Below, in pieces: positions 26,483 to 43,314 of a stretch of 64,000 nucleotides of DNA (the stretch's first letter is position 1; the number at the start of each line of letters is the position of its first letter). The position numbers were made by a program, and so were the translations under genes. The stretch comes from Agromyces sp. Root81 (GTDB taxonomy: Bacteria > Actinomycetota > Actinomycetes > Actinomycetales > Microbacteriaceae): positions 580,875 through 644,874 of the forward strand of contig NZ_LMIR01000001.1 of the NCBI RefSeq assembly GCF_001429165.1. Reading direction: 5' to 3'. The notes below the pieces were generated by a model. That model had not been told where the DNA came from and made no database searches. It saw only the letters and a program-made list of their open reading frames with translations.

Positions 26483-26714
26483 GGGCAGGCCCTTGGAACG
26501 TGGGACTCGACGCCACGTCAAAGCAAAAGAGCAGTGCCTCGGCGCGCAATCAGGTGTGGGCGCAGGCCGTATCGGTCTGGGTGAAAACACGATCCGAACT
26601 CAACATTGAATTCTTCTCATGTTTCTCGGGGGTGAGACCAGTTGTACTCTCGTCGCCGGGCCGCCGCTGCCCCCACTTCGGATGACATCCGGTCGGAGCG
26701 TCGCCCGCCGACCG
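26483..26714 (-). promoter_or_regulatory. Leader region ahead of the minus-strand EPS arm
   Basis: 232 bp without a gene. It holds an AT-richer patch (about 26575-26635) that stands out in this GC-rich DNA and is the natural place for the promoter of the secreted-protein/EPS transcript. I cannot assign -35 and -10 boxes with confidence, and no strong terminator hairpin is visible. Confidence 0.35.
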
Positions 26715-29253: not shown

Positions 29254-30828
29254 CTACCCGTCGAGTCGTAGCGCGAGGCGTACGGCGAGACGCCCGCTGG
29301 GCTCATCGAGGTCGATCGGCACGAGTTCACGTGCGCGCCGCAGACGCTGAAGCACCGTATTACGGTGCACGTGCAACAGTTCAGCGGTCTCGCTCGTGTT
29401 CGATTCGAGGTCGAGATACGTGCGCAACGTCCGCACCAGTTGCCCGCTCGTGTCCGCGGCGCGAAGCGGTGCAATCAGCGCAGTGACGACCTCCCGGGTC
29501 ACGCCGTCGGGGATCCAGCTTTCGACGAGTCGATTCGCCGTCATGGCGTCCGAGCGCTGGACGACAGCACTCCCATGCTCCGCCTCGGCGAACGCGAGGG
29601 CATGCCGAGCCTCACCAAGGGACGCACCGAGCCCGGCTACACCCTCGCGGGCACCTCCGATGCCTGCGTAAAGGCGAAGACCGGGATATGTGCGCTCGAC
29701 GCCGTTCAGCGCCGCCTTCAGCCGCGCCGCGATCTGTCCGATCGCGGCGCCGTCCTGGCTCGTGCCTGCAGTGACCCAGAACGCCAGGGTGCGGTCCAAC
29801 CCGATCGGACGCATCTGGAAGGCGTGAGCGTGGAGCCCGTCGTCGAGGGCATGCGCGATGGTGGCGCGGGGTAGCGCCGAGACGGCGCTCTCGGCGCGGA
29901 TCTGCACTGCGACGTGCCATCCGAAAAGCTGCCAGCCCCGTGCGGTGGCCTGTTCCACCTCCCCGAGCGTGATGTTGTCGCCTCGAGTGAGGAGATCACC
30001 AAGCAGAGCTCCGGCGTCGCGGTTCTCGCGCTCAAAGGCGAGTGACGTTTGGGCGAGATGTGCCGAGAGCGCGAAGGTTGCGATGCGGAGGGCCGTAAAC
30101 ACGTGGCTCAAGCGCGAATCGAGTCCCCGCGCGACGAGGGCGGCCAGCCAGAACCGTGGATGGTCGCCCACCAGTGGGAACGCCGGCGCAAGCAGGAGTC
30201 GCTGGCCGTTGCCGGCATCGAGTGATGTGTCAACGAGGTCACCCCGTCGCTCTGAGAGTGCGATGCGCTCGGCGATCGCGGTCCGCCCGCCCAAGGCGGG
30301 ACCGGCGACCGAACGCCCATCCGCTCCGACCAAAGCGACCGGGACGTCGAGTGCGTTGGAGACTCGGGTTACGATCACGGCGAGGTCGGCAGCCGGCTGC
30401 TGCAATGTCTCGCTCAGAAGGCGGATGGCGCCGGCTCCCACGAGCTCAGGGTCGCGTACGAGCTGCTCGACGCGGGACTGCAACTCGCTCGGGTCGAGTT
30501 CGACCTCGCGCCATATCGCGATGCCGAACCGCACGGCCAGGCGCTCTGTCGAGAGCGGGATGCGGTCTGGGCCCGACTCCACGACGAGACAGCTGACTCG
30601 CACGGCGGCCGCGCGGCGCAGGATGAGGTCGAGGGCAACGTCGCCGCTACGTGCGACCTCCCGCGGGACGATCACCAGTGAGTTCGGTCGCTGGCGACCT
30701 GCGTCCTCGGTGTTCGCGATCGTCGCAACAGTTGTGACCACACGGTCGAGAGTCTCCTCTCCACCACACATACGCGCTCGGCTCGCCTCGTCGGCGAACG
30801 TTTGAACAACCGCTCGGACGGTGAGCAC
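29254..30828 (-). CDS. PucR-family transcriptional regulator
   Basis: 524-residue cytoplasmic regulator. Residues 1-120 resemble the PucR N-terminal sensor. A middle GGDEF-like/CdaR-type region (about 255-400) includes WHVAVQIR and LRLYAGIGGAREGVAGLGASLGEARHALAFAE. The C-terminal PucR helix-turn-helix (about 455-515) reads LRTYLDLESNTSETAELLHVHRNTVLQRLRR. I choose the GTG at 30828 because a strong GGGAGGTGG ribosome site lies 6-7 bp upstream; the frame extends to 30867 without a site. PucR members often activate purine or allantoin (a hydantoin) catabolic genes in response to substrate. It is divergent from the DUF917/HyuA/ABC cluster and is its obvious regulator. Confidence 0.91.
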   Translation of the reverse strand: MLTVRAVVQTFADEASRARMCGGEETLDRVVTTVATIANTEDAGRQRPNSLVIVPREVARSGDVALDLILRRAAAVRVSCLVVESGPDRIPLSTERLAVRFGIAIWREVELDPSELQSRVEQLVRDPELVGAGAIRLLSETLQQPAADLAVIVTRVSNALDVPVALVGADGRSVAGPALGGRTAIAERIALSERRGDLVDTSLDAGNGQRLLLAPAFPLVGDHPRFWLAALVARGLDSRLSHVFTALRIATFALSAHLAQTSLAFERENRDAGALLGDLLTRGDNITLGEVEQATARGWQLFGWHVAVQIRAESAVSALPRATIAHALDDGLHAHAFQMRPIGLDRTLAFWVTAGTSQDGAAIGQIAARLKAALNGVERTYPGLRLYAGIGGAREGVAGLGASLGEARHALAFAEAEHGSAVVQRSDAMTANRLVESWIPDGVTREVVTALIAPLRAADTSGQLVRTLRTYLDLESNTSETAELLHVHRNTVLQRLRRARELVPIDLDEPSGRLAVRLALRLDG

Positions 30829-30866
30829 GGTCCACCTCCCTGTGCAGAGTGCTGATGATGCGGTCA

Positions 30867-30895
30867 ACTATAGGCATACTGCCCCGTGACTCCAA
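30867..30895 (-). promoter_or_regulatory. Candidate sigma-70-type promoter for the pucR-type gene
   Basis: On the minus strand TTGGAG (30895-30890) and TATAGT (30872-30867) are separated by exactly 17 bp, about 40 bp before the GTG start at 30828. It lies inside the 106-bp divergent region, so a regulator bound here could control both directions. A plus-strand promoter must lie in the same stretch but is not clear. Confidence 0.5.
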
Positions 30896-30934
30896 CGAGT
30901 CGGTCGGGGATCCTTGCTCGAAAGGAGATCCAGC

Positions 30935-32008
30935 ATGCGATTCACTAGCTCTGACGTAGCGCCCATGGCGCTGGGAGCCGCGGTGCTCGGCGGCGGCGGC
31001 GGGGGCGAGCCGTACGTCGCGGAAGTCGCGCTTGCCGAGCTCATGCGCCGACACGGCCCGATAGATGTGGTGGCCGTCGACGAACTGGACGACGACGACA
31101 GGGTTGCACCGATCGCGCTGATCGGGTCACCGTTTGCCATCGGCGAGAAGCTGCTGAGCCTCGAAGCCATCGACTTGCTCGCATCGGAATCGCCCGCCCG
31201 CGGGCCGGCCCCGACCGCAGTCATGCCCTACGAAATGGCCGGCGTCAATGCGATCTACCCGCTTGCGGCCGCCGCGCACCTCGGTGTTCCCTGCGTCGAT
31301 GCGGACTTCACCGGGCGCGGAGTGCCGGGACTGGACCTCACCGTGCTCGAACTCGATCATTCCCATCCTCGAACTCATCTGCTTTGCGATTCCCGCAGTC
31401 GCTGGGTGGAGCTCACGACCTCTGCAGGGTTCTCGACGGAGCAACTCATCCGGCCGGTTGTCGAGACCATGGGCTGGCTCGCCGCGCTCAGCACATCCAC
31501 GCTCACACCCGAGTTCCTCGCAGCGCACACGCTCGACGGGACACTCAGCCGTTGCCTCGAGATCGGCACCGTGTTCGCGGAACTGTCGACGATGAATGCA
31601 GTGGGCGTGGATCAGGCGCTTCGTCGAATCGATGGGGTTCGCCTGGCAGAGGGGGTCGTCTCGCAGCGCGTTTCCCAAGCAGACACGACCGGGCAAAGGT
31701 CTTCGGTCACGATTGCGCCCGACACCGCGGGTGAAGCGCTGACCCGTATCGAACTGCGCAACGAGTTCCATGTCGTTGCGCGCGACGGAATCGTACTCGC
31801 GACCATCCCCGACATCATCGTGGTTCTTGCTCGCGAGACGTGGACGCCACTCTCGGTCGAAGACCTTGTTCCAGGTCGTGGAGTCACGGTGATCGCGCTC
31901 GCATCGCATCCGCGCTGGAGGACGCCCGACGGCGTTCGGCTTGCCGGCCCGCGAGCGCTCGGACACGGAATCGACTACGTCGACTTCGCCAAGCAGGTGG
32001 CGTCGTGA
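30935..32008 (+). CDS. DUF917 protein (S-methyl-thiohydantoin desulfurase-like), copy A
   Basis: 357 residues from an ATG with an excellent AAAGGAGATC ribosome site (the frame's earlier start at 30914 lacks one). The Gly-rich N-terminal motif AAVLGGGGGGEPYVAE (about residues 16-31) and the central VPCVDADFTGRGVPGLDL (about 122-139) identify the family. The ending HPRWRTPDGVRLAGPRALG is shared with copy B at 38578. The family was long of unknown function; members include an enzyme acting on S-methyl thiohydantoins. Copy A lacks segments of copy B between about 140 and 180. First gene of the divergent cluster, overlapping the next gene by 4 bp (GTGA), which suggests the two products act together. 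Confidence 0.86.
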   Translation: MRFTSSDVAPMALGAAVLGGGGGGEPYVAEVALAELMRRHGPIDVVAVDELDDDDRVAPIALIGSPFAIGEKLLSLEAIDLLASESPARGPAPTAVMPYEMAGVNAIYPLAAAAHLGVPCVDADFTGRGVPGLDLTVLELDHSHPRTHLLCDSRSRWVELTTSAGFSTEQLIRPVVETMGWLAALSTSTLTPEFLAAHTLDGTLSRCLEIGTVFAELSTMNAVGVDQALRRIDGVRLAEGVVSQRVSQADTTGQRSSVTIAPDTAGEALTRIELRNEFHVVARDGIVLATIPDIIVVLARETWTPLSVEDLVPGRGVTVIALASHPRWRTPDGVRLAGPRALGHGIDYVDFAKQVAS

Positions 32009-33444
32009 CCACCGTGCCGCCGAATGGCGGCGGGCTGCGCCTCGGAATCATCACCGGGACTTCGCACGTCGAAGTTGCAGCAATCGACCGCGATGACGAG
32101 GTCGTCGCCGCCGGCCGTTGGGAACGCGAAGTCCTCATGGAAGACCAATCCGGCGACGGACTCGGGTGGAGCACATCGGTGGAACACGCGCTTGCATCGG
32201 TCGTCGACGCCACGGCATCGACGCGAATCCAGTCAATCGTGGTCGGCGGAACCCACCTGCGCGAGACGCTCGATAGCCGACGTCCGCTTGCGCGCGTGGG
32301 TGTACTGCGCCTCGGAGCGCCTGCGACGACGGCCGCGCCACCATTCGCGGGCTGGCCCGACTCACTCGTGCGCCGCATCGGCGGCCCGCGAACGATTGTC
32401 GCCGGAGGGGCGGACCTCGACGGCAGCGACCTCGCCCAACTTGACGAAGCGGCAGTGATCCGGTTCGCGAAGTCGTGCGACGGCGCGATCGACGCCATTG
32501 CGATCTCCGGCGTGTTCTCGCCCGTTGCTGCCGCGGGCGAGCTTCGAGCCGCGGATCTCGTCGCTGATGTGCTCGGCCCGGCCGTGCCCGTCACAGTCAG
32601 CCACAGCATCGGCGGCTTCGGCCTTCTTGATCGAGAGAACGCCGGCATCCTCAATGCCGCCCTCATCCCGGCAGGAGAGCAGATGGTCGCGAGCACACGT
32701 GCAGTGCTCACGCGGCTCGGGATCGATGCCGAGCTCTTCTTCGTGCAGAACGATGGGACCCTCCAGGTAGCCGCCGCTGCGACCTCAACGCCGATCCGAT
32801 TTCTCGATGGCAGCCTCGCTGCGACGATCCGCGGTGCAGGGTGGCTCGCGGCAACATCTGATGCTGTCGTCGTTGCCCTGGAGTCGGCCTCCACGCGAGC
32901 GGGAGTGCTGCGCGAGCGCTCGGTCGCACTCGAAATCGGACCGTCGATCACCGCCGGGGTTCGAATGAATGTCGAGTTGCCGCTCGGATACGCTCTCGAC
33001 GCTGGCAGCGTTGCCGAAGCCGTCGAACTCATGAGTCGACACGCACCGCAGGTGCCGACGATCATCGTCGGGGACGGGGCCGTCCCCTCGGCCGGCCTCG
33101 GTCGCGTTCCTCGATACGCCGAGATCGCCGGTGCGGTCGGCGCGGCCCTCGCGCCGGTGAGCGCCGTGGCGTGGGAAGTCGTGATGGCGGGCAGTGATGA
33201 GGCCTCCCGTATCCGCGACGCCCGCCAGCGTGCTGTCGACCTGGCGATCCTCGCCGGCGCCGACCCATCGACGTCGGAGGTCGTCGCCGTTGGCGAGACC
33301 GACCTCAGCCAGATGCTCGGCGGCGCGAGGCGCCTCCGATTTCGTGCCGAGGGGCGACCGTTCACCCCGACTACAGAACCGCACCACACCGAGCGCGCCG
33401 AAGCGCACCACCAGGAGAGACAAGAGAGCAGGGAATCACCATGA
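32005..33444 (+). CDS. HyuA-like (hydantoinase/oxoprolinase A) protein with degenerate ATP site
   Basis: 479 residues from a GTG overlapping the previous stop. It aligns by eye with the intact HyuA-like protein at 37016: AGGADLDGSDLAQLDE, SGVFSPVAAAGELRAADL, GLLDRENAGILNAAL and VQNDGT are shared. But the nucleotide-binding elements are lost. The first phosphate loop DVGGTNTD is replaced by ITGTSHVE (about 16-23), GTTHFINA by GGTHLRET (81-88), and the second phosphate loop DVGGTTSDIG by ALESASTRAG (291-300). I infer a non-ATPase partner or regulator of the DUF917/HyuA pair. The frame is intact and coding-like, so it is not a simple pseudogene. Its stop overlaps the binding-protein start (ATGA). 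Confidence 0.8.
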   Translation: MTTVPPNGGGLRLGIITGTSHVEVAAIDRDDEVVAAGRWEREVLMEDQSGDGLGWSTSVEHALASVVDATASTRIQSIVVGGTHLRETLDSRRPLARVGVLRLGAPATTAAPPFAGWPDSLVRRIGGPRTIVAGGADLDGSDLAQLDEAAVIRFAKSCDGAIDAIAISGVFSPVAAAGELRAADLVADVLGPAVPVTVSHSIGGFGLLDRENAGILNAALIPAGEQMVASTRAVLTRLGIDAELFFVQNDGTLQVAAAATSTPIRFLDGSLAATIRGAGWLAATSDAVVVALESASTRAGVLRERSVALEIGPSITAGVRMNVELPLGYALDAGSVAEAVELMSRHAPQVPTIIVGDGAVPSAGLGRVPRYAEIAGAVGAALAPVSAVAWEVVMAGSDEASRIRDARQRAVDLAILAGADPSTSEVVAVGETDLSQMLGGARRLRFRAEGRPFTPTTEPHHTERAEAHHQERQESRESP

Positions 33445-34463
33445 GGAAGACATCCTTTGCCAGCGTCGCCGCCCTCGCGGCAATTGCATCACTCGCCCTG
33501 TCGGGCTGCACAGCTGAGTCCGAGCCGGCCGCCGAGGGAGGCGATGAGCCCTACACCGTTTGGTACGCCGACGTGATGGACGCGAACCCCATTGCCAACG
33601 CGATCACCCAGGGATTCAACGAGGTGCTCACCGAAAATGGAGTAGATGTCGTGCGGTCGCTCGCCGTCGACCCTACGACTGGCAACATCGACCTCGCCGT
33701 CCAGTCCCAGGCGCTCACTCGAGCGGTGTCGGCGAACCCCGACGCCATCGCGTACTTCGTGCTCGACCCGACCGCGTCCCGACCGCAGATCGAGCAGGCG
33801 AAAGAGGCCGGCATCCCCGTGTTCGCGGCGTTCGGCAAGCCCGACTTCGAGGTCAACGGGTACATCTCGCTCGCCGACGAGGCTCAGGGCTACGCCGCAG
33901 CGAAGTACCTGGCCGACAATCTGCCCGAGGGCGCGAAGGTCGCGGTGATCGGCGGCCCGGCGACACCGAACGTGCTTGCCGAGGAGGCTGGCGCGATGAA
34001 GGCGCTTGAGGAGGCCGGAGTCGAGATCGTCGGCGACGTCGAGCAGCAGCGCAACCTCGCCGACAACGCCGCCGGGGGGAAGGAAGTGATGCAGGGCATC
34101 CTCTCGCGATTCCCCGATGTGCAGGGCGTCTTCTCGTACAACGACGATTCCGCCCTCGGCGCGATCGCGGCGGCCAAGCAGGCCGGTGCCGACGTCGCGT
34201 TCACAAGCCGCAATGGCACCGCTGACGCCGTCGGTGCGGTGCAGGCAGGAGACCTGCTGGCGACGTGCGATCTGCAACCGCTCGAGGTCGGTCGGGCGCT
34301 CGGACGTGCCGTGCTCGCCCAGCTGACTGGCGAACGCGACTACCAGGGCACCGAGGAGATCGAGGGCCCGACGAGCGACGCCTGTCTTGTCACCGCTGAG
34401 AACGCCGCCGACTGGAAATCGCCCGAAGACCAGATCGACTTCGTCGACATCACCCTCGGCTGA
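33441..34463 (+). CDS. ABC importer substrate-binding lipoprotein (RbsB-like)
   Basis: 340 residues. Lipoprotein signal peptide with lipobox LSGC (Cys23), so the mature protein is tethered outside the membrane. The body is a type I periplasmic-binding fold (Peripla_BP_4): YTVWYADVMDANPIANAITQGF, LDPTASRPQIEQAKEAGIPVFA (hinge strand) and VQGVFSYNDDSALGAIAAAKQAG, the last typical of ribose/xylose-type binding proteins. The ATG overlaps the upstream stop, linking uptake to the DUF917/HyuA pair. The ligand is unknown; although the fold is usually sugar-binding, some members bind purine nucleosides or other small molecules. Confidence 0.91.
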   Translation: MRKTSFASVAALAAIASLALSGCTAESEPAAEGGDEPYTVWYADVMDANPIANAITQGFNEVLTENGVDVVRSLAVDPTTGNIDLAVQSQALTRAVSANPDAIAYFVLDPTASRPQIEQAKEAGIPVFAAFGKPDFEVNGYISLADEAQGYAAAKYLADNLPEGAKVAVIGGPATPNVLAEEAGAMKALEEAGVEIVGDVEQQRNLADNAAGGKEVMQGILSRFPDVQGVFSYNDDSALGAIAAAKQAGADVAFTSRNGTADAVGAVQAGDLLATCDLQPLEVGRALGRAVLAQLTGERDYQGTEEIEGPTSDACLVTAENAADWKSPEDQIDFVDITLG

Positions 34464-34466
34464 CGC

Positions 34467-35972
34467 ATGAGCACCCTCATCGGATTGCGCGATGTCTCGG
34501 TCGACTACTCGGGGAACCGTGCACTCGACTCTGTGACTCTCGACGTACACGCCGGCGACGCTCTCGCCGTCGTGGGGGCGAACGGCTCGGGCAAGACGAC
34601 TCTGCTCAACGTGCTCACAGGTCAGCGGCTGCCCAGCGACGGTGCAGTCATCGGTCCCGAGGGTGAGCTGCGGCTCGTCTGTCCGGCCGACGCACTCGCC
34701 CTGGGCATCGTGCTCGTGCCGCAGGAACCGCAGATGGCACCGACACTGCCGGCGTGGGAGAACCTCCTACTCGGGGCCCGCTCGCTCACCGCCTCAGCGC
34801 CGAACCGAGCCGATCGTGATGCGGCCCGACGCAGAGTGCGTGCAGTATTGCCTCACATCGACCCCGACACGGTGGCCGGAGACCTTCGCAAGGCTGATCG
34901 GGCCGTGTTGGGCCTCGAGCGTGGAATGCTGGCCTTGCCGCGGATCCTCGCGCTCGACGAACCCACCGCCGTACTCGGTGAGCAGGGCGTCGATCTCGTC
35001 GAACAGGCCACGAAGGCGATCACGGATACCGGGGGCGCGGTGGTGCTCGTCAGCCATCGTCTGCGCGACATCGTGAGGTTGGCAACTCGGGTGGCGGTGC
35101 TCGTCGATGGCCGGCTCGTGCTCGATCGCCCGGTCGCCGAAGTCTCGGTGGAGAAGATCGTCGACACGCTGGCGGCCGGTCGTGGAGTTGAGGTCGCACG
35201 AAGCAGGGGGCAGCGTGCGCGCCCCTCGAGACAATCAGTCTCACCTGTGCTGGAAGTGACGACGGATCGCGAACGATCCGGTCTCGAGTTCGAAGGGCTC
35301 GCCGTGCACGCGGGCGAGATCGTCGGCATCGCCGGTATGGCCGGCAGCGGTCGTAGCCGACTCTGCAAGCTCGTCGCAGGCGTAGCTGGCGACACCGACG
35401 GCGTCCGGTACGAGGGCGCGGCGGTACCCCGCACGGCTCGTAGCGCGCGTCGCGCTGGGATCGCCTACATCCCCGAGGATCGCCTGCGCGAAGGCGTGTT
35501 TCCATCACTCTCGGTCGCGAGCAATATCGAGATCGGGGACCTTGTGCGCCGCGGACTCGCCGCGATCGTACCGTTCAAGCCGGCCGCCTCCGCGACGGCG
35601 CGCGTCATCGAGCGGTTCGGGATCCGCACACCTTCCCAATCGGCGGACATCACGGCACTCAGCGGGGGCAACGCGCAACGTGTCGTCGTGGCGCGAGAAC
35701 TCATGAACGAACCGCGGCTCCTCATCGCCGACGAGCCGACACAGGGAGTCGATCGGACTGGGCGGGCGGCGATCCACGACCTCCTCCGCGACTTCGCAGA
35801 GCGCGGGGGCGCCGTCTTGCTTGTGAGCTCCGAATTCGAGGAACTGCAGGAATTGGCCGACCGGCTGTACGTGATGGCCGACGGCCGCATCGTCAGCGCG
35901 GAACCCGTGACCACCCCCTACTCGCGGCTCGTCGCCCTCGCCACCGGCGTCGACGAGTCGGCCTCCATCTGA
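34467..35972 (+). CDS. ABC importer ATPase with two nucleotide-binding domains (RbsA/MglA-like)
   Basis: 501-residue duplicated ATPase. NBD1 has Walker A GANGSGKTT (about 36-44) and Walker B ILALDEPT (about 157-164), but its signature region reads LRKADRAVLG instead of an LSxGQ motif. NBD2 has the usual altered P-loop GMAGSGRSR (about 290-298), a proper LSGGNAQR signature and LLIADEPTQG. It powers import with the neighbouring permease and binding protein. It starts 3 bp after the previous stop and ends 12 bp before the permease ATG. Confidence 0.93.
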   Translation: MSTLIGLRDVSVDYSGNRALDSVTLDVHAGDALAVVGANGSGKTTLLNVLTGQRLPSDGAVIGPEGELRLVCPADALALGIVLVPQEPQMAPTLPAWENLLLGARSLTASAPNRADRDAARRRVRAVLPHIDPDTVAGDLRKADRAVLGLERGMLALPRILALDEPTAVLGEQGVDLVEQATKAITDTGGAVVLVSHRLRDIVRLATRVAVLVDGRLVLDRPVAEVSVEKIVDTLAAGRGVEVARSRGQRARPSRQSVSPVLEVTTDRERSGLEFEGLAVHAGEIVGIAGMAGSGRSRLCKLVAGVAGDTDGVRYEGAAVPRTARSARRAGIAYIPEDRLREGVFPSLSVASNIEIGDLVRRGLAAIVPFKPAASATARVIERFGIRTPSQSADITALSGGNAQRVVVARELMNEPRLLIADEPTQGVDRTGRAAIHDLLRDFAERGGAVLLVSSEFEELQELADRLYVMADGRIVSAEPVTTPYSRLVALATGVDESASI

Positions 35973-35984
35973 AAGGTGCGGACC

Positions 35985-36962
35985 ATGACACAAGAGACCC
36001 AGATCCGCGAACCGGCGCGTCGCGCCGAGGCGCGCGGCTACCTGCGCGATCATGCCACCGACCTCGTTCTGCCGATCGCCCTGGTCGTGCTCATCGTCGT
36101 GGGATTGACCCTGTTCCCGAGTTTCCGATCGGTCGGCAACTTCGTGAACATCCTGACCTTCTCCTCGATCCTCCTCATCGTGGCAATCGGCGAGACGTTC
36201 GTCGTGATCGGACGAGGTGCCGACCTCTCCGTCGGGTCCATGGTCGGCTTCTCGGGTGCGATCCTCGCGATCCTCGTGATCGACGGCTGGCCACCCGTGC
36301 TCGCGGCGGCGACTGCGCTCATGTTCGGCGTCGGCATCGGCATCGCGCAAGGACTGCTGATCGCGAAGCTCCGGATCTCCTTCCTCATCGTGACGCTCGG
36401 CACATTCGCGATCCTGCGAAGCCAGGTGCAGGTGCTCCTGCAGGGCCAGAGCAAGACAGTGTCGGTACCGTTCCTCGAAACGCTGGCGACCGGGCGCGTC
36501 GGGCCGATTCCGATCATCGTGATCGTCGCGGTGCTCGCATACCTCCTTGCGACCTGGGTGCTTCGCGGCACCGGGTTCGGGCGGGCGCTGTACGCCGTCG
36601 GCTCGAGTCCTGAAGCCGCCCGCCTCGCAGGCATCCCGGCCGCCAAGGTCACCATCATCGCATTCGCGATCAGTGCTCTCGCCGCTTCCTTCGCCGGCCT
36701 GTTGACGGTCGGATCGCTCGGCTCGGCGCAGACGACCGCGGGCACCGGCATGGAGATGACCGCGCTCTCGGCCGTGCTGCTCGGCGGAACCCGGTTCTCC
36801 GGCGGATACGGAAGTGCGACGCGCACGCTCTTCGGTGTCCTCTTCCTCGGTGTGCTCAACAGCATCCTCTACGCCGCGGGCGTCAGCTCGTTCTGGCAGG
36901 GCACGGCATCGGGACTCGTCCTCATCGCCGCCGTCGCCCTCGATCGAACGCGCAAGGACTGA
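35985..36962 (+). CDS. ABC importer permease (RbsC-like)
   Basis: 325 residues with about 8-10 hydrophobic helices and the family segment LRGTGFGRALYAVGSSPEAARLAGIPAAKV, which carries the EAA-like loop contacting the ATPase. GGTRFSGGYGSATRTLFGVLFLGVLNS near the end is also typical. The ATG at 35985 is preferred over a GTG at 35976 because AAAGG lies 8 bp upstream. Only one permease is encoded, so a homodimer is expected. Confidence 0.93.
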   Translation: MTQETQIREPARRAEARGYLRDHATDLVLPIALVVLIVVGLTLFPSFRSVGNFVNILTFSSILLIVAIGETFVVIGRGADLSVGSMVGFSGAILAILVIDGWPPVLAAATALMFGVGIGIAQGLLIAKLRISFLIVTLGTFAILRSQVQVLLQGQSKTVSVPFLETLATGRVGPIPIIVIVAVLAYLLATWVLRGTGFGRALYAVGSSPEAARLAGIPAAKVTIIAFAISALAASFAGLLTVGSLGSAQTTAGTGMEMTALSAVLLGGTRFSGGYGSATRTLFGVLFLGVLNSILYAAGVSSFWQGTASGLVLIAAVALDRTRKD

Positions 36963-37015
36963 CCGCTGCGCACGGTCGTCCACTCCACACCACACTCGAA
37001 TCAAAGGAGAACACC

Positions 37016-38575
37016 ATGCCACTGCGCATCGGAATCGATGTCGGCGGAACGAACACCGACGCCGTTGTGCTCAACGGACGTCACGTCGTCGCCGCGACCA
37101 AGGCGACCACTACACCGGATGTCACCGGCGGCATCCTTCGTGCACTGACCGACGTGCTGCCGGGCATCGATGTCGCCGAGATCTCGTCGGTCTTCATCGG
37201 CACCACGCACTTCATCAATGCGATCGCCCAGGCCCGCGATCTGGAGCCCGTTGCAGCCGTCCGGCTCGCGACGCCGCCGCAGTCGCTCCTCCCGATGATC
37301 GATTGGCCCGAGCGTCTGCTCGGAGTCGTCGGCGACCATTTCTACGTCGTAGCCGGTGGTGCGCAGTTCGACGGCAGCCTGTTGAATGAGCTCGACGAGG
37401 ACGGGCTCCGAGGTGTCGCGGCGACGATCGCGGCCGCAGGCGTGCGGCAGGTCGCCCTCAGCTCGGTCTTCTCCTCGGTCAACCCCGAGCCCGAGATCCG
37501 CGCTGCCGAGATCCTCCGCGAGGAGCTGCCCGGCGCGAGGATCACCCGCTCCGCGCTCGTCGGCCGCGTTGGACTCCTCGAGCGTGAGAACGCGACCATC
37601 CTCAACGCCTCGCTGCTCGGGCTCGCCGAGCGCGTCATTGATGGACTAGAACGGGTGGTCGAGAGCCTCGGAATCCGTGCGCCGATCCTCCTCTCGCAGA
37701 ACGATGGCACCGTCATGACGCTCGATCGCGCCCGCGAGTTCCCGATCTTCACGATCGCCTCGGGTCCGACTAACTCGATGCGCGGTGCAGCTCTCCTGTC
37801 GGGGTACGATCACGGTGTCGTGGTCGACGTCGGCGGAACGACGTCGGACATCGGAATGCTTCAGCACGGATTTCCGAGGGAATCCACAGTGGCGATGAGT
37901 CTCGCGGGAATCCGCAGCAACTTCCGCATTCCCGACGTGCTCTCGCTCGCCCTCGGTGGCGGCACCGTCATCGGCGATGGCGGAGGGCGGGTCGGACCCG
38001 AGAGCGTTGGATACCGCATCGCTGCGGAGGCGCTCGTCTTCGGCGGTGGCACGATGACGTTCACCGACATCGCCGTCGCCGGCGGAGCCGCGCCGATCGG
38101 CGACGCCAACGGCGTGGCAGGCCTACCGAACGACCTGGTGACCCGTGCCCTCGGGGTGGCGGGCGAGCGGCTCGTGGCGGCGATCGAACGAGCGAAGCTG
38201 ACCTCCGGGGACGTTCCGGTCATCGCCGTCGGGGGCGGTGCTGCGCTGTTGGCCGCGGTACCGGGCCTTGACGGGATCATCATCCCCGACCACGCCGGGG
38301 TCGCCAACGCGGTGGGTGCCGCCTTCGCGGAGGCCGGCGGCGAGATCGACCGTGTCTACAAGCTCAGTGGCCGGACCCGAGCGGAGGTGCTCGAGTCCGC
38401 CATGGCCGAGGCCCGAGGGCTTGCGATCGGGGCCGGTGCCGACCCATCCGACGTCCGCATCATCGACGCCGAGGACATACCTCTCACCCACCTGCCCGGC
38501 GGTCTCGCCGTGCACGTGCGCGTGAAGGCAGTCGGTCCATTCCTCAGCCCCGTTGCGATTCTGGAAGGAATCTGA
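37016..38575 (+). CDS. HyuA-like (hydantoinase/oxoprolinase A family) ATPase
   Basis: 519 residues after an AAAGGAG ribosome site. ASKHA-type ATP-grasping motifs are intact: DVGGTNTD (8-15), IGTTHFINA (61-69), ILLSQNDGT (224-232), IASGPTNSMRGA (247-258), DVGGTTSDIG (271-280) and GGGTVI (314-319). The length is near that of DUF917-linked members and shorter than the roughly 690-residue HyuA of classic HyuAB hydantoinases; no HyuB gene is present here. It probably couples ATP hydrolysis or phosphorylation to ring opening of a cyclic amide or ureide. It is followed at 2 bp by DUF917 copy B, the mirror of the order seen at 30935-33444. Confidence 0.9.
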   Translation: MPLRIGIDVGGTNTDAVVLNGRHVVAATKATTTPDVTGGILRALTDVLPGIDVAEISSVFIGTTHFINAIAQARDLEPVAAVRLATPPQSLLPMIDWPERLLGVVGDHFYVVAGGAQFDGSLLNELDEDGLRGVAATIAAAGVRQVALSSVFSSVNPEPEIRAAEILREELPGARITRSALVGRVGLLERENATILNASLLGLAERVIDGLERVVESLGIRAPILLSQNDGTVMTLDRAREFPIFTIASGPTNSMRGAALLSGYDHGVVVDVGGTTSDIGMLQHGFPRESTVAMSLAGIRSNFRIPDVLSLALGGGTVIGDGGGRVGPESVGYRIAAEALVFGGGTMTFTDIAVAGGAAPIGDANGVAGLPNDLVTRALGVAGERLVAAIERAKLTSGDVPVIAVGGGAALLAAVPGLDGIIIPDHAGVANAVGAAFAEAGGEIDRVYKLSGRTRAEVLESAMAEARGLAIGAGADPSDVRIIDAEDIPLTHLPGGLAVHVRVKAVGPFLSPVAILEGI

Positions 38576-38577
38576 TC

Positions 38578-39657
38578 ATGTTGCTCATCGACGAGGCTGC
38601 ACTCGACGACATCACCCTCGGCTCGACGGTCCTCGGAGCCGGCGGCGGCGGCGACCCGTATGTGGGCATGCTGCTCGCGCGCGACGCGATCCGCCGCTTC
38701 GGCCCGGTACCGCTGGTGCCGCTCGACGAGATCGCCGACGACGCGAACATCGTCTTCATCGCCGGTATGGGCGCACCAGGTGTGCTCATCGAGAAGCTCC
38801 CCCGTGCCGCTGAGTACGAGCGGGTGCTGCGGGAGCTCGAACGGTTCACCGGTATCACCTTCGACTACGTCTGTCCTGCCGAGGCGGGCGGACTGAACGC
38901 CGTGACGCCGTTCGCGACCGCCGCCGCGGCGGGGGTGCCGGTGGTCGATGCTGATGGCATGGGTCGTGCCTTTCCTCACCTCGAGATGGTCACGCCGACG
39001 CTTTACGGCGGCAGTGCGACGCCGATGGTGATGGTCGACGAGCACGGGAACAACATGTACCTCACCACGGAGGCGAATCCGTGGGCGGAATCGTACGCGC
39101 GAGCAGCTGCGGTGGCGAGCGGCGCAAACACGGCGATGGCCCTGTACCCGATGACCGGTGCTCAGGCGAAGGAACGCCTCGTGCGCGGCGCCCTGACCGT
39201 CGCGGCTGAGATCGGGAGAACCATCAAGCAGGCGCGCGTCGACCATGTCTCTCCCGTCGATGCTGTACTCGAGAACCAAAATGGCGTCCTGCTGTTCCGC
39301 GGCAAGGTCGAACAGGTCGAGCGCCGCAACGAGGGCGGCTGGACCATCGGCACCGCGAATCTCAGCGGCCTCGACGAAGATCGTGGACTCTCGTTCGTGC
39401 TGCACTTCCAGAACGAGAATCTGGTGGCGGAGCGCGACGGCGCCATCGTCGCGACGACCCCTGACCTCATCATGGCGATGGAGCTCGATTCCGGCCAGCC
39501 AATCCCCGCTGAGGAGATCCGATACGGCTACCGCGTCGCGGTGATCGGGTTGCCGAGCGACCCGCACTGGAGAACGCCCGCCGGCATCGATCTCTCGGGC
39601 CCGCGGCGCTTCGGCTACGACTGGGACTTCGTGCCGGTGGAGGGGTTCCGCCGGTGA
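38578..39657 (+). CDS. DUF917 protein (S-methyl-thiohydantoin desulfurase-like), copy B
   Basis: 359 residues. Motifs: STVLGAGGGGDPYVGML (about residues 15-31), VCPAEAGGLNAVTPF (about 99-113), VPVVDADGMGRAFPHLEM (120-137), and SDPHWRTPAGIDLSGPRRFGYDWDFVPV near the end. Its sequence is nearer to what I know of the family than copy A. The ribosome site GGAAGGA precedes the ATG at 38578. It is sandwiched between the HyuA-like ATPase (2 bp) and the amidohydrolase (4-bp GTGA overlap), so the three probably work in sequence on an imported heterocycle. Confidence 0.89.
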   Translation: MLLIDEAALDDITLGSTVLGAGGGGDPYVGMLLARDAIRRFGPVPLVPLDEIADDANIVFIAGMGAPGVLIEKLPRAAEYERVLRELERFTGITFDYVCPAEAGGLNAVTPFATAAAAGVPVVDADGMGRAFPHLEMVTPTLYGGSATPMVMVDEHGNNMYLTTEANPWAESYARAAAVASGANTAMALYPMTGAQAKERLVRGALTVAAEIGRTIKQARVDHVSPVDAVLENQNGVLLFRGKVEQVERRNEGGWTIGTANLSGLDEDRGLSFVLHFQNENLVAERDGAIVATTPDLIMAMELDSGQPIPAEEIRYGYRVAVIGLPSDPHWRTPAGIDLSGPRRFGYDWDFVPVEGFRR

Positions 39658-40958
39658 GTCGCCTGGTTTTGCACGGCGGCACCGTATTCGACGGCACGGG
39701 TACCGAACCCCGTGCGGTCGACGTCGCGATCGAAGCCGGGCGGATCGCCGCCGTCGGCGACGCACTCTCGGGCGATGCACGCATCGACGTCACGGGCATG
39801 CTCGTGGCTCCGGGCCTCATCGACTGCCATGTCCACGCGCAGTTCGACGGCATGGACGTGGTGAAGGCGGCATCCCAACCATTCTCGATGCAGTTTTTCG
39901 AAGCCGCGCGCAATCTTTCAACGATGCTCTATTCCGGGGTGACGACGGCGCGTGACGGCGGCGGCATCGATCTGGGTGTGAAGACAGCAGTCGAAGCCGG
40001 GCTCGTGCGTGGCCCGCGACTCGTGATCGCGATCACGGTACTCAGCCAAACGGGCGGGCACGTGGACGGCTGGAACGTGCATGGCGATGTGCAACGGTTG
40101 CTCGTGCCTCATCCGGGGCGCCCCGACACGGTGGTCGATGGCGTCGACGCCATGAGGAAACGTGTGCGGGAGATCATCCGGGCTGGCGCTGACACCATCA
40201 AGGTCTGCGCGTCGGGCGGGGTGATGTCGCCGCGCGACGATCCGCAGCATCCGCAGTTCTCGCTCGAGGAACTCGAGGTCTGCGTGCAGGAAGCTCGCGC
40301 GGCCGGCCTCGATGTGATGGCTCATGCGCACGGAGCGGCGGGCGTGAAGCAGGCGTTGCGCGCCGGCGTGCGCTCGATCGAGCACGGCGTCTACCTCGAC
40401 GACGATGCGATCGAGCTGTTCCTCGAGACCGAAGCCTGGCTCGTGCCGACGCTCCTCGCACCGATCGCCCTCGTCGAAGCCATCGATGCCGGAATGAGCG
40501 TGACGCCGGACATGGAACGGAAGGCGCGTGGGATCGCTGGGGCGCACCTTGCCTCGGTGGCTCGCGCCCATGCGGCCGGCGTGCGGATCGCGATGGGCAC
40601 TGACAGCGGAGTGTTCGCGCACGGCCACTCAGCGAAAGAGCTTCACTGGCTCGTTCGCGCCGGCCTCAGCCCGCAGGAGGCCTTGGTTGCCGCGACCTCA
40701 TCGGCCGCTGAGCTGCTCCGGGTCGATGGGGAGATCGGCACAGTCGGCGAGGGCAAGGCGGCCGATCTGATCGTCCTCGGCGCGGATGCGTGGAACTTCG
40801 AGCGATTCTCCGAGAACCTCCGCCTCGTGATCCATGACGGGGTCATCGTGTCGGATCGACGCCCACTCGAAGAGCGAGTGGGACACCATCAACGCGCATA
40901 TCCAGGCTCATTCCTACAATCGCATGTCAGCGACGGCGCCCGCGACAGCGGGTTCTGA
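39654..40958 (+). CDS. Metal-dependent amidohydrolase (imidazolonepropionase/prolidase-like)
   Basis: 434 residues. All metal ligands of a binuclear amidohydrolase are present: H59 and H61 in DCHVHAQFDG, the carbamylatable lysine K183 in TIKVCASGG, H224/H226 in MAHAHGA, H244 in SIEHGVYL and D317 in GTDSGV. The subgroup includes imidazolonepropionase-like and Xaa-Pro dipeptidase-like enzymes. The GTG overlaps the DUF917 stop. As last gene of the cluster it could hydrolyse the N-carbamoyl or amide product of ring opening, or open the ring itself. It appears cytoplasmic, with no signal peptide. Confidence 0.91.
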   Translation: MSRLVLHGGTVFDGTGTEPRAVDVAIEAGRIAAVGDALSGDARIDVTGMLVAPGLIDCHVHAQFDGMDVVKAASQPFSMQFFEAARNLSTMLYSGVTTARDGGGIDLGVKTAVEAGLVRGPRLVIAITVLSQTGGHVDGWNVHGDVQRLLVPHPGRPDTVVDGVDAMRKRVREIIRAGADTIKVCASGGVMSPRDDPQHPQFSLEELEVCVQEARAAGLDVMAHAHGAAGVKQALRAGVRSIEHGVYLDDDAIELFLETEAWLVPTLLAPIALVEAIDAGMSVTPDMERKARGIAGAHLASVARAHAAGVRIAMGTDSGVFAHGHSAKELHWLVRAGLSPQEALVAATSSAAELLRVDGEIGTVGEGKAADLIVLGADAWNFERFSENLRLVIHDGVIVSDRRPLEERVGHHQRAYPGSFLQSHVSDGARDSGF

Positions 40959-41725: not shown

Positions 41726-43014
41726 GGCAGCGCGATGACAGAGCAGACACGACGGATGTCTCGGGCGCGGTGCATGCCGCGGATGCGACGGGCGCGATGA
41801 GCACGACACGAGTACAACGCGCCCTCGACGACGAACTCGCCAGCCTCGGTATCGGGCTCTTGATCGGCGCGGCCTGCCTCGCGCTCCTGCTCCGCGCCGC
41901 GGGCGCGGTCGCGGCGTGGGCGACCGGACTCCCCCAGCCGGCGCGCGGGCCGGAAGCCGGACTTGCCGTGCTCCTCCGGCCCGGGCGATCCCACTGCCGT
42001 GCTGGACGCGCCCGGCCTGCACCCGTCGCATTCTGGATCGCCGCCACCGTCCTGATCGGCACGGCCATCGCGGCAACCGTGTGGTCATGGCGGATGCTGC
42101 GCACCGCCGGCCGAACCACGAAGACCGACCCCCACCACATCCCAGGCATCGCCACCCGCGCCGACGTCAGCCACGCGGCATCCCGCAGCGCCCTCATGAA
42201 ACGCGCCGCCCACTTGCGACCCTCACTGACTGATGCGAAGCCGACCGACGTTGGATACGTCCTCGGTCGCTCCTGCGGCACGGATGTTTGGGCGAGCATC
42301 GAGGACTCGATGCTCATCATTGGGCCGCCTCGCTCCGGCAAGGGCGTGCACATCGTGATCAACGCGATCCTCGATGCCCCCGGCCCTGTGGTCACCACTT
42401 CGACCAGGCCCGACAACCTCACAGCCACGCTCCGCGCCCGCAGGCGTATCGGCCCCGTGGCGGTGTTCGACCCACAGCAGCTCGCTGCCGGAGTGCCCGC
42501 TGGCCTGCGCTGGTCACCGATCCGTGGCTGCGAGGACCCGCTCACTGCGATGATCCGCGCCACCGGACTCGCCGCTGGTGGGGTCGACGGCGGCGGCTTC
42601 TGGGAAGCCAAGACCCGCACCGCACTCCAAACCCTCCTCCACGCCGCAGCACTCGACCACCGCCCACCCGCCGAGCTCTACCGTTGGACCCTCGACCCCG
42701 CCGCAGCCCACGACGCCGTCGCGATCCTTCTCGGCAACCCCGCCGCCGCCACCAGGTGGGGCGACTCGCTCCAGGCCATACTCGAAGCCGACCCCCGCAC
42801 CCGCGACTCGATCTGGCAGGGCGTGTCCCTCTCCCTCGGCGCCCTCGCCGACCCCCGCGTACTCGACGCCGTCTCCCCCGGCGACGGCGAGGGGTTCGAC
42901 CCCGAAGCGTTCCTTCGCAGCAACGGCGCCCCTTACCTGCCCGCGACCGGCGCCGGAGCGAACAACTCCGCCGCTCTCGTTGCCGCGTTCGTCGAAGACC
43001 TCAATGAGACCGCC
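41609..43014 (+). mobile_element. Remnant of an integrative conjugative element beside tRNA-Ala
   Basis: About 1.4 kb of conjugation-gene sequence lies between a truncated chromosomal membrane-protein gene and a tRNA gene. The left edge is where the DUF1761 homology stops, the right edge where coupling-protein homology stops. No integrase, relaxase or clear direct repeats flank it. tRNA 3' ends are common att sites for tyrosine integrases, and this tRNA's 3' end faces the remnant. I infer past insertion followed by a large deletion. Confidence 0.6.
41797..43014 (+). pseudogene. VirD4/TraG-type conjugative coupling protein, truncated
   Basis: From the ATG at 41797 the frame gives two membrane helices (about residues 14-35 and 69-90), SMLIIGPPRSGKGVHIVINAI with the Walker A motif (about 171-183), VAVFDPQQLAAG, and GAGANNSAALVAAFVEDLNETA, all matching VirD4/TraG-like ATPases that bring DNA to a type IV secretion channel. 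After NETA (about 43013) homology ends, before the Walker B region that should follow, and the frame runs on without a stop to 43302, across the tRNA gene. A stretch at about 41970-42035 also reads better one frame over, suggesting compensating indels. Not expected to be functional. Confidence 0.75.
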
Positions 43015-43145
43015 TTCGTCGTCCGAGGCGATTCGTTGTGGATCGCTGTGGAACGGGGCGGAAATCCAAAAAGGCCCCAAAAAGGCCCCAGAAGCCCTGT
43101 TTCAAAGAAAAGAACCCCTGAGAACTTGACGTTCATCAAGGGCTT

Positions 43146-43221
43146 TGGTGGATCTGAGGGGACTCGAACCCCTGACCCCCTGCATGCCATGCAGGTGCGC
43201 TACCAGCTGCGCCACAGACCC
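43146..43221 (-). tRNA. tRNA-Ala (anticodon GGC)
   Basis: On the minus strand a 76-nt cloverleaf begins GGGTCTG and ends with discriminator A plus encoded CCA. The 7-bp acceptor pairs GGGTCTG with CAGATCC, one G-U pair included. The anticodon arm CCTGC-ATGGCAT-GCAGG gives anticodon GGC (Ala). The T-loop GGTTCGAGTCCC is standard. It lies upstream of rsfS in opposite reading to the ICE remnant, with its 3' end toward the remnant. Confidence 0.96.
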
Positions 43222-43314
43222 GTTCTGCCTCGCTTGAGGCAACGAATTGAGCTTACACCAGCCTCCGCCCGCAGACGAAATCGAGGGACTCTCGACCGGT
43301 GAAGCCCGCTTCGA

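Follow-up and report, generated by a model that had tools for sequence, protein, structure and literature searches.

The cluster at 29254-40958 of the window (the whole 64,000-nt stretch analysed: the soil actinobacterium Agromyces sp. Root81, GCF_001429165.1, contig NZ_LMIR01000001.1, 580,875-644,874, forward strand) holds two HyuA–DUF917 pairs, one with intact ATP motifs and one without. We tentatively propose that the intact pair, HyuA–DUFb, is an active enzyme and that the other, HyuA*–DUFa, has been retained as a non-catalytic partner, most likely as a sensor for the neighbouring PucR-type regulator. Judged by its genes, the operon probably imports a small ring-shaped amide and opens it with ATP.

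The PucR-type regulator is followed by DUFa–HyuA*, a CUT2 (Rbs-type) importer, HyuA–DUFb and an amidohydrolase (Table 1). Reading frames and Pfam matches confirm the gene order and families of the original prediction. All genes exceed the Pfam cut-offs for their expected families, with the partial exception of HyuA*, which passes Hydant_A_N (32.7 versus 25.2 bits) but not Hydantoinase_A (21.4 versus 22.9). DUFa and DUFb each carry both Pfam domains of the DUF917/S-Me-THD-like superfamily above cut-off. The importer is of the CUT2 type by its Pfam content: a Peripla_BP_4 binding protein (SBP), a fused double ATPase and a BPD_transp_2 permease in one operon. A C-terminal HTH_30 (73 bits) and a GGDEF-like domain (38.5 bits) place the regulator in the PucR/CdaR type; the N-terminal PucR domain PF07905 was not found in it at E 0.001. 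The predicted 4-bp overlaps are present at three junctions: DUFa/HyuA* (32005-32008, GTGA), HyuA*/SBP (33441-33444, ATGA) and DUFb/amidohydrolase (39654-39657, GTGA). Gaps of 2–3 bp lie at HyuA/DUFb, SBP/ATPase and ATPase/permease, and 53 bp precede HyuA. Starts were judged by eye from overlaps or Shine–Dalgarno-like context: GTG 32005 is likelier than 31840 for HyuA*, ATG 30935 is preferred over TTG 30914 for DUFa, and GTG 30828 is likelier than TTG 30867 for PucR. The GC content is lower here (66–68% versus 69–73%), with part of a conjugation gene and a tRNA-Ala located downstream; no flanking direct repeats resembling attachment sites were found that could mark the ends of a genomic island.

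Table 1. Features of the cluster, in window coordinates, with the basis of each assignment.
Feature	Coordinates	Strand	Basis
PucR/CdaR-type regulator	29254..30828	-	HTH_30 and GGDEF-like (Pfam); start context; identity to the regulator of related clusters
Divergent intergenic region PucR/DUFa	30829..30934		GGCA-N3-TGCC; operator or promoter candidate only
DUFa, DUF917 (S-Me-THD-like), HyuA* partner	30935..32008	+	Pfam; column comparison
HyuA*, short hydantoinase-A paralogue, ATP motifs lost	32005..33444	+	Alignment; model
Substrate-binding protein, SBP (Peripla_BP_4)	33441..34463	+	Pfam; lipoprotein signal by inspection
Double ATPase, CUT2 importer (RbsA-like)	34467..35972	+	Pfam/NCBIfam
Permease, CUT2 importer (RbsC-like)	35976..36962	+	Pfam/NCBIfam
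HyuA, short ATP-dependent hydantoinase/oxoprolinase-type kinase subunit	37016..38575	+	Pfam; intact motifs
DUFb, DUF917, proposed hydrolytic partner of HyuA	38578..39657	+	Pfam; model; HyuB-free genome
Zinc amidohydrolase, Xaa-Pro dipeptidase/arginine carboxypeptidase/ochratoxinase kind	39654..40958	+	Pfam/NCBIfam; inspection

HyuA keeps both ATP phosphate motifs (DVGGTNTD and DVGGTTSD), matches Hydantoinase_A at 94.5 bits, and aligns its D8 and D271 to D11 and D295 of CapA. A search of the whole genome (99.97% complete) for HyuB (PF02538) gave no match, the same search being positive in 6 of 14 control genomes. Because the genome lacks HyuB, DUF917 is the partner at hand for HyuA. Both bacteria and archaea have short HyuA–DUF917 pairs: in a redundant survey set drawn from the two, including the window, 151 of 154 intact HyuA genes have a same-strand DUF917 gene within 400 bp, and the exceptions are a fragment at a contig end, which is counted twice, and a single long HyuA. 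The survey loci were retrieved by similarity to HyuA*, and all counts describe that sample, in which some genomes appear twice. This gene content agrees with the earlier suggestion that, without HyuB, DUF917 serves as the partner. The DUFb model (pLDDT 94.8) has the 2o3i fold (Z 39.4, r.m.s.d. 2.3, 336 aligned), a comparison made for DUFb alone. A fold relationship between DUF917 and HyuB was set aside, as no HyuB-like chain is among the best 50 DUFb-model matches listed, which falls short of a disproof. From these sequence features we consider HyuA–DUFb likely to be an ATP-dependent cyclic-amide hydrolase.

In the proposed route, the operon would be catabolic and PucR-controlled. The CUT2 importer would bring in a small cyclic amide, HyuA would phosphorylate the ring carbonyl oxygen with ATP to give an imidoyl phosphate, and DUFb, paired with HyuA on genomic grounds and replacing HyuB, would hydrolyse this intermediate and open the ring; the amidohydrolase may then cleave the linear amide. 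DUF917 is chemically apt for an imidoyl phosphate, because one kind in the family takes its name from the hydrolysis of an S-methyl thiohydantoin, in which a ring C=N carbon likewise bears a leaving group. Against the desulfurase equivalogs (NCBIfam NF058532 and NF058529, S-methyl thiohydantoin/thiohydantoin), DUFa and DUFb score 88.6 and 116.4 bits for S-methyl thiohydantoin desulfurase (cut-off 450) and 61.4 and 98.8 bits for the second (cut-off 440). These scores are too low for desulfurase identity of either protein. Thus, the uptake-and-degradation route of the original prediction holds to the extent that gene content supports a single operon for uptake and hydrolysis next to a PucR-type regulator, whereas its thiohydantoin reading is not favoured.

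HyuA* lacks the ATP phosphate motifs of an active HyuA: both aspartates are gone (D8 to I and D271 to A, HyuA numbering), as are the counterparts of HyuA residues 307–330 and 340–385, about 70 residues. According to PMC8453981, D11A and D295A in CapA significantly reduced the product of caprolactamase. HyuA* is very probably not an ATPase. Both predicted pairs are therefore present, but not as two equal enzymes, a reading ruled out by the loss in HyuA* of the ATP-site aspartates critical in caprolactamase. The HyuA* model (pLDDT 86.8) has the fold of CapA and of the Apc alpha subunits. DUFa deviates at 14 of the 48 columns conserved in DUF917 proteins with intact partners, including K243, R249, G254, G258, Q278, R319 and F345 (DUFb numbering), the first four being conserved in 95–99% of 152 such proteins. 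Losses of conserved columns number 7–15 in DUF917 with a degenerate HyuA, against a median of 0 (90th percentile 2, maximum 16, n = 152) with an intact HyuA, so that a few intact-partner proteins are equally diverged. The relatives of HyuA* evolve under purifying selection (dN/dS 0.12 for two same-genus orthologues and 0.42–0.57 among loci L094, L200 and L201); with their frames open and dN/dS below 1, pseudogenes are ruled out for the family, and for HyuA* of the window itself the judgement is based solely on its uninterrupted frame and its overlaps. HyuA*–DUFa may thus represent a decayed copy that has lost its ATP chemistry, of a family retained by selection as a non-catalytic partner.

The arrangement is not due to chance, because a PucR gene divergent from DUFa–HyuA*–HyuA–DUFb recurs, without the importer, in three related genomes (L094/L202, L200 and L201). 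Identities to the window are 72–76% for DUFb, 75% for HyuA, 54–55% for DUFa, 41–43% for HyuA* and 50–51% for PucR, such that HyuA*, DUFa and PucR diverge faster than HyuA and DUFb. The GGCA-N3-TGCC intergenic region is an operator or promoter candidate, two of three conservation tests being within or near chance: 19 of 24 bases match in L201 (equalled in 0 of 100 shuffles), 17 of 24 in L200 in a different register (2 of 100) and at best 16 of 24 in L094, within chance (9 of 100). Degenerate pairs are found at five other loci. In the HyuA tree, eight of nine degenerate HyuA proteins fall in one supported group (99/96; clade read from the drawn tree) and L080 stands apart, with long branches; in a DUF917 tree built by a quick method, the partners of L080 and L108 lie elsewhere, indicating that degenerate partners arose at least twice. 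A plasmid search with HyuA* gave matches in 106 records, none reaching 60% identity.

A PucR gene adjoins all nine degenerate pairs, overlapping or within about 140 bp. Among non-redundant actinobacterial loci, this is true of 5/5 degenerate versus 9/27 intact pairs (Fisher p 0.01) and, across all phyla, of 6/6 versus 6/41; intact pairs entered both counts only with 1200 bp of sequence flanking them on each side, and L200, L201 and the window are outside them. A same-strand PucR gene lies within 300 bp of 4/7 degenerate pairs versus 1/123 intact pairs (170 bp off), when DUF917 is taken only within 400 bp of a HyuA. The same-strand overlaps with degenerate pairs are ATGA in L077, GTGA in L078 and L079, and TGATG in L108, whereas none of the 123 intact pairs is overlapped or abutted by PucR on the same strand. 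Six further loci have a lone DUF917, with no HyuA beside it, overlapping or abutting a same-strand PucR gene (from frame extents, with approximate starts). These proteins have lost 14–19 of the 48 conserved columns, and their existence shows that PucR coupling does not require HyuA*. The window is inside the same-strand and lone-DUF917 counts; L043–L073 were left out, as short, from these, from the actinobacterial count and from the 120-locus tblastn searches below. PucR adjacency is partly inherited, because the degenerate pairs are related by descent, L078 and L079 belong to a single genus, and a divergent placement like that of the window is seen in 25 of 29 intact pairs adjoining PucR. On balance, we give an even chance to HyuA*–DUFa sensing a ligand for PucR; the decayed DUF917 would be the sensor core. 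More broadly, it is possible, if somewhat doubtful, that a dead hydrolase copy (decayed DUF917 with or without a decayed HyuA*) forms a nutrient sensor of a new kind: PucR-type regulators would have acquired it at least twice as their partner for ligand sensing, often with overlapping genes, and active HyuA–DUF917 would be a HyuB-free ATP-dependent ring opener.

Alternatively, HyuA*–DUFa could be the structural or allosteric half of one heteromer with HyuA–DUFb, like alpha and alpha' of acetophenone carboxylase, a two-alpha complex described in PMC5214803. Both pairs share one operon in the window, L094, L200 and L201, where the degenerate pair, transcribed divergently from PucR, lies inside the enzyme operon, as expected of a subunit, and the HyuA* fold is closest to the Apc alpha-type chain 5l9w_b (Z 26.7, r.m.s.d. 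3.6, 414 aligned). However, the sole DUF917 of genome G710, and likewise of G688 (a single contig, 99% complete), belongs to a degenerate pair. In L077 and L108 it is the degenerate pair that overlaps PucR, the intact one being encoded on the opposite strand. Both Apc subunits keep their ATP motifs. We regard such a heteromer as unlikely.

DUFa may still be an enzyme, because most conserved acidic residues are kept (E72, E102, N107, D124, D126, E280 and D296). It would then actively hydrolyse imidates or thioimidates without ATP, scaffolded by HyuA*, and the two pairs would catalyse consecutive steps of a single pathway. The named DUF917 activity is that of a desulfurase (by family name only), and several intact clusters have extra DUF917 genes. 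The low equivalog score of DUFa, its loss of K243, R249, G254 and G258, and the additional loss of E102 in its L078 and L079 counterparts make this improbable.

The importer and amidohydrolase are add-ons, because in the three closest relatives the importer is absent and the amidohydrolase missing or internally deleted, and both are rare elsewhere: among 120 loci of other HyuA–DUF917 pairs (tblastn E 1e-15), four have an amidohydrolase relative, four have relatives of both ATPase and permease, and none has a binding-protein relative. The CUT2 class extends beyond sugars. An ordinary sugar importer inserted between unrelated catabolic genes, leaving the cluster as no single pathway, would fit the CUT2 sugar type, the ribose-type nearest relatives of the binding protein and the importer-free relatives, but is very improbable given the HyuA*/SBP overlap, the short gaps, the four loci with ATPase and permease relatives, and the AI-2 and B6 members of CUT2 listed by NCBIfam. 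These ribose-type relatives of the binding protein are weak, and its similarity was rejected as a guide to the substrate. Candidates are a cyclic dipeptide, a lactam or a hydantoin. By inspection, the amidohydrolase has HxH, Lys, two His and Asp, which we take to be the usual metal ligands. At 281.8 bits against Xaa-Pro dipeptidase NF051886 (cut-off 500), it is a relative rather than an assigned orthologue. A cyclic dipeptide is a lead suggested indirectly by this enzyme kind, by oligo_HPY matches that fall short of the Pfam threshold in 7 of 10 transporter ATPases picked from the surroundings of other pairs, and by PMC11055893.

The original prediction knew of no described pathway with this gene set, in agreement with the open-licence PMC literature searched, where we found no paper assigning a reaction to a short HyuA–DUF917 pair. 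If DUF917 replaces HyuB, many 'hydantoinase/oxoprolinase' genes would encode enzymes of a second ATP-dependent ring-opening class. A sensor role for the dead copy would exemplify an enzyme turned regulator partner and offer a route to the substrate, as such a sensor would be expected to bind either the enzyme's own ligand or one related to it.

Among known systems, the excerpted text of PMC11055893 places DUF917, called uncharacterised and proposed to comprise hydrolases of hydantoin-like rings (hydantoinases), in cyclodipeptide-oxidase-like clusters with peptide-type importers and racemases (AroM/hydantoin racemase); the HyuA partner, ATP and degenerate copies are not treated in that text. 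HyuAB, OPLAH and CapAB resemble the present system in a HyuA of the CapA sequence family, both phosphate motifs, the cyclic-amide substrate class and a neighbouring second subunit. They differ in that HyuA of the window has 519 residues versus 696 in CapA, DUF917 stands in place of HyuB/CapB (PF02538, Asp-His-Asp-His metal site), and an ATP-dead second pair is present. The acetophenone carboxylase core (alpha alpha' beta gamma) likewise has two different HyuA-like chains per cluster, of which chain b is nearest to HyuA* in fold, but both of its chains have ATP motifs, and no HyuB-like beta or gamma subunit is seen here. The thiohydantoin desulfurases and CV_3147 (PDB 2o3i) share the DUF917 family, and the latter the fold of DUFb; DUFa and DUFb differ from the desulfurases in scoring far below their cut-offs and in adjoining HyuA genes. 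In ROK repressors of the NagC/Mlc kind, an ASKHA kinase fold has become a transcriptional sensor, an analogy in working to the role suggested for HyuA*–DUFa. There, the helix-turn-helix is fused to the ASKHA protein, whereas the PucR-type regulator of the window is a protein of its own, with a putative partner that includes DUF917.

The cluster at 29254-40958 contains, gene for gene, what the original prediction had described, and sits in a 4.16 Mb host genome that is 99.97% complete, with the window inside a single contig. HyuA*, the degenerate paralogue of HyuA, has lost both phosphate motifs and lacks HyuA residues 307–330 and 340–385. Its predicted model (pLDDT 86.8) retains the HyuA/CapA/Apc fold, matching 5l9w_b (Z 26.7, r.m.s.d. 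3.6, 414 residues aligned) and 6yra (Z 24.9, r.m.s.d. 3.5, 422 residues aligned). Our survey collected 161 HyuA-like frames, 154 of which were classed as intact. Some degenerate frames from outside the window keep the aspartate of motif 2 and have lost the glycines and threonine after it. Of the 46 residues at 340–385, degenerate proteins retain 0 to 15 (seven distinct frames tested), against at least 41 in 153/154 intact proteins; the remaining one is truncated where its contig stops. By a simple Nei–Gojobori calculation, dN/dS is 0.12 for the degenerate copies of L078 and L079 and 0.42–0.57 among those of L094, L200 and L201, where the intact copies give 0.21–0.25, about half as much. Three Bacillaceae loci carry, near the standard pair, a second and very divergent HyuA–DUF917 pair, with D[VF]GGSTIDIG as phosphate 2 motif and a long branch in the HyuA tree.

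Features and loci, with coordinates on the sequence named
Feature	Locus or source	Coordinates (strand)	Remark
1615-aa protein	window	21743-26590 (-)	N,N-dimethylformamidase-like domain, four DUF4082 stretches, Ig-like domains
PucR	window	29254-30828 (-)	PucR/CdaR-type regulator
PucR/DUFa intergenic region	window	30829-30934	short element common to same region of L201 (19/24 bases); contains GGCA-N3-TGCC
DUFa	window	30935-32008 (+)	DUF917 partner of HyuA*
HyuA*	window	32005-33444 (+)
CUT2 importer	window	33441-36962 (+)
HyuA	window	37016-38575 (+)
DUFb	window	38578-39657 (+)	DUF917 partner of HyuA
Amidohydrolase	window	39654-40958 (+)
Type IV secretion fragment	window	41770-43302 (+)
tRNA-Ala	window	43146-43221 (-)
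Amidohydrolase	L094 (= L202)	13972-14565
Degenerate pair, importer, PucR genes	L078	4953-16997
Second Bacillaceae pair	L105	5905-7503
Second Bacillaceae pair	L114	5078-6667
Second Bacillaceae pair	L115	5035-6609
Degenerate HyuA	L077; G1022
Degenerate HyuA	L078/L079; G710/G688		one genus
Degenerate HyuA	L080; G963		motif 1 kept, motif 2 lost
Degenerate HyuA	L094 (= L202); Spongiactinospora rosea
Degenerate HyuA	L108; Actinomycetota MAG
Degenerate HyuA	L200/L201; G1083/G1034

A PucR gene lies within 500 bp of 7/7 degenerate pairs and 32/154 intact pairs in the survey; the two further degenerate pairs, in L200 and L201, have one at about 110–140 bp. With redundancy removed, the counts are 6/6 degenerate versus 6/41 intact across all phyla (L078 and L079 both counted) and 5/5 versus 9/27 in actinobacteria (p 0.01). 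Orientation separates the two classes better than adjacency does: four of the seven degenerate pairs have a same-strand, overlapping PucR, and a same-strand PucR stands beside one of 123 intact pairs, at 170 bp. The junctions with degenerate pairs read ATGA (L077), GTGA (L078 and L079) and TGATG (L108).

When all DUF917 genes in 121 loci were checked, six further same-strand contacts with PucR, overlapping or abutting, were found (L037, L038, L041, L042, L082 and L162), none with a HyuA beside the DUF917; in most of these clusters there is also an intact pair whose HyuA is of the same kind as that in the window. PucR coupling thus occurs without need of HyuA*, so that the sensor proposal now leans mainly on DUF917. 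In L038, L041, L042, L082 and L091, a single intact HyuA has two or three DUF917 genes nearby. The six lone proteins have lost 14–19 of 48 conserved columns and the partners of degenerate HyuA 7–15; for partners of intact HyuA the median is 0 (90th percentile 2, maximum 16, n = 152). K243 and G258 (DUFb numbering) are lost in all six lone proteins. K243 and R249 are each lost in 8/9 partners of degenerate HyuA, and kept in 95% and 99%, respectively, of the partners of intact HyuA. The stretch that holds these residues is a candidate contact with active HyuA. On the DUF917 tree, degenerate partners must have arisen two or more times, and intact relatives near both degenerate sets (L059/L086, L029 and L072/L093) also lie by PucR.

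Judged by gene order and decay, HyuA*–DUFa may sense a ligand for PucR. The six lone contacts and the column losses bring this proposal, in our estimate, from just short of balanced to evenly balanced. The same evidence slightly raises a broader reading, which still stands at somewhat less likely than not: that a dead copy of a cyclic-amide hydrolase (a decayed DUF917, with or without HyuA*) was recruited more than once as a PucR sensor, HyuA–DUF917 itself being a ring-opening enzyme of a HyuB-free class. Alternatively, HyuA*–DUFa could form half of a heteromer with HyuA–DUFb, and its position inside the enzyme operon in the window fits such a subunit equally well. However, G688 and G710 each have one DUF917 in the whole genome, belonging to the degenerate pair, so in these two genomes no intact HyuA–DUF917 enzyme exists of which the dead pair could form half. 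The degenerate pair of L078 is lined up with genes for a branched-chain-type ABC importer and a luciferase-like monooxygenase, and two PucR genes come after this row.

The two-pair arrangement, for which the original prediction had proposed a search across actinobacteria, recurs in part: three loci from a single family, L094, L200 and L201 (S. rosea belongs to the Streptosporangiaceae), keep the order PucR, DUFa–HyuA*–HyuA–DUFb, but the importer is absent. All three clusters are followed by a zinc-type dehydrogenase gene. The S. rosea amidohydrolase follows DUFb with a GTGA overlap as in the window, and has an in-frame internal deletion of ~200 residues (about 110–312 of 434), outside which it is 58–64% identical to the window protein. 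As this remnant shows, the amidohydrolase was not a novelty of Agromyces; no match to it was found in L200 or L201. The intact and degenerate pairs of L077 are transcribed divergently, and PucR follows HyuA*. The intact pair of L108, accompanied by a hydantoin/Asp-Glu-type racemase and a cytosine/purine-type permease, lies opposite PucR–DUF917–HyuA*, which is encoded on the other strand. The core thus consists of both pairs plus PucR; in the window, importer and amidohydrolase have been added to it.

The cluster region is lower in G+C than its surroundings. Among 10 other genomes of the genus, a HyuA* search gave distant matches only (≤42% identity) in three and, at the thresholds used, none in seven; the cluster is thus rare in the genus and may have been acquired. 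No island ends were found around it. Downstream lies a 22.3-bit match to a type IV secretion DNA-transfer protein; this fragment, whose frame crosses a tRNA-Ala gene on the opposite strand, looks like the remnant of a mobile element.

As had been predicted, HyuB, the usual β partner, is absent, here from the whole genome, in which the two Hydant_A_N and two DUF917 matches all lie in this cluster. A same-strand DUF917 occurs within 400 bp of 151/154 intact HyuA genes, the other three being a long HyuA and a fragment at the end of a contig, which two overlapping loci share. Together with the missing HyuB, this association suggests that DUF917 is the hydrolytic partner of HyuA. The sole strong match of the DUFb model (pLDDT 94.8) is 2o3i, an uncharacterised structure (Z 39.4, r.m.s.d. 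2.3, 336 residues aligned). HyuA itself (519 residues, both phosphate motifs present) can be aligned with N-methylhydantoinase and the caprolactamase CapA. Its D8 and D271 correspond to CapA D11 and D295, mutants of which show significantly reduced product formation (PMC8453981). Many genes named as oxoprolinases may encode lactamases or cyclic dipeptide hydrolases, as suggested in PMC6061476. Hydantoinases are described in PMC5214803 as α–β pairs that phosphorylate an imidate. By analogy with the thioimidate chemistry implied by the family name S-methyl thiohydantoin desulfurase, DUF917 might hydrolyse an imidoyl phosphate.
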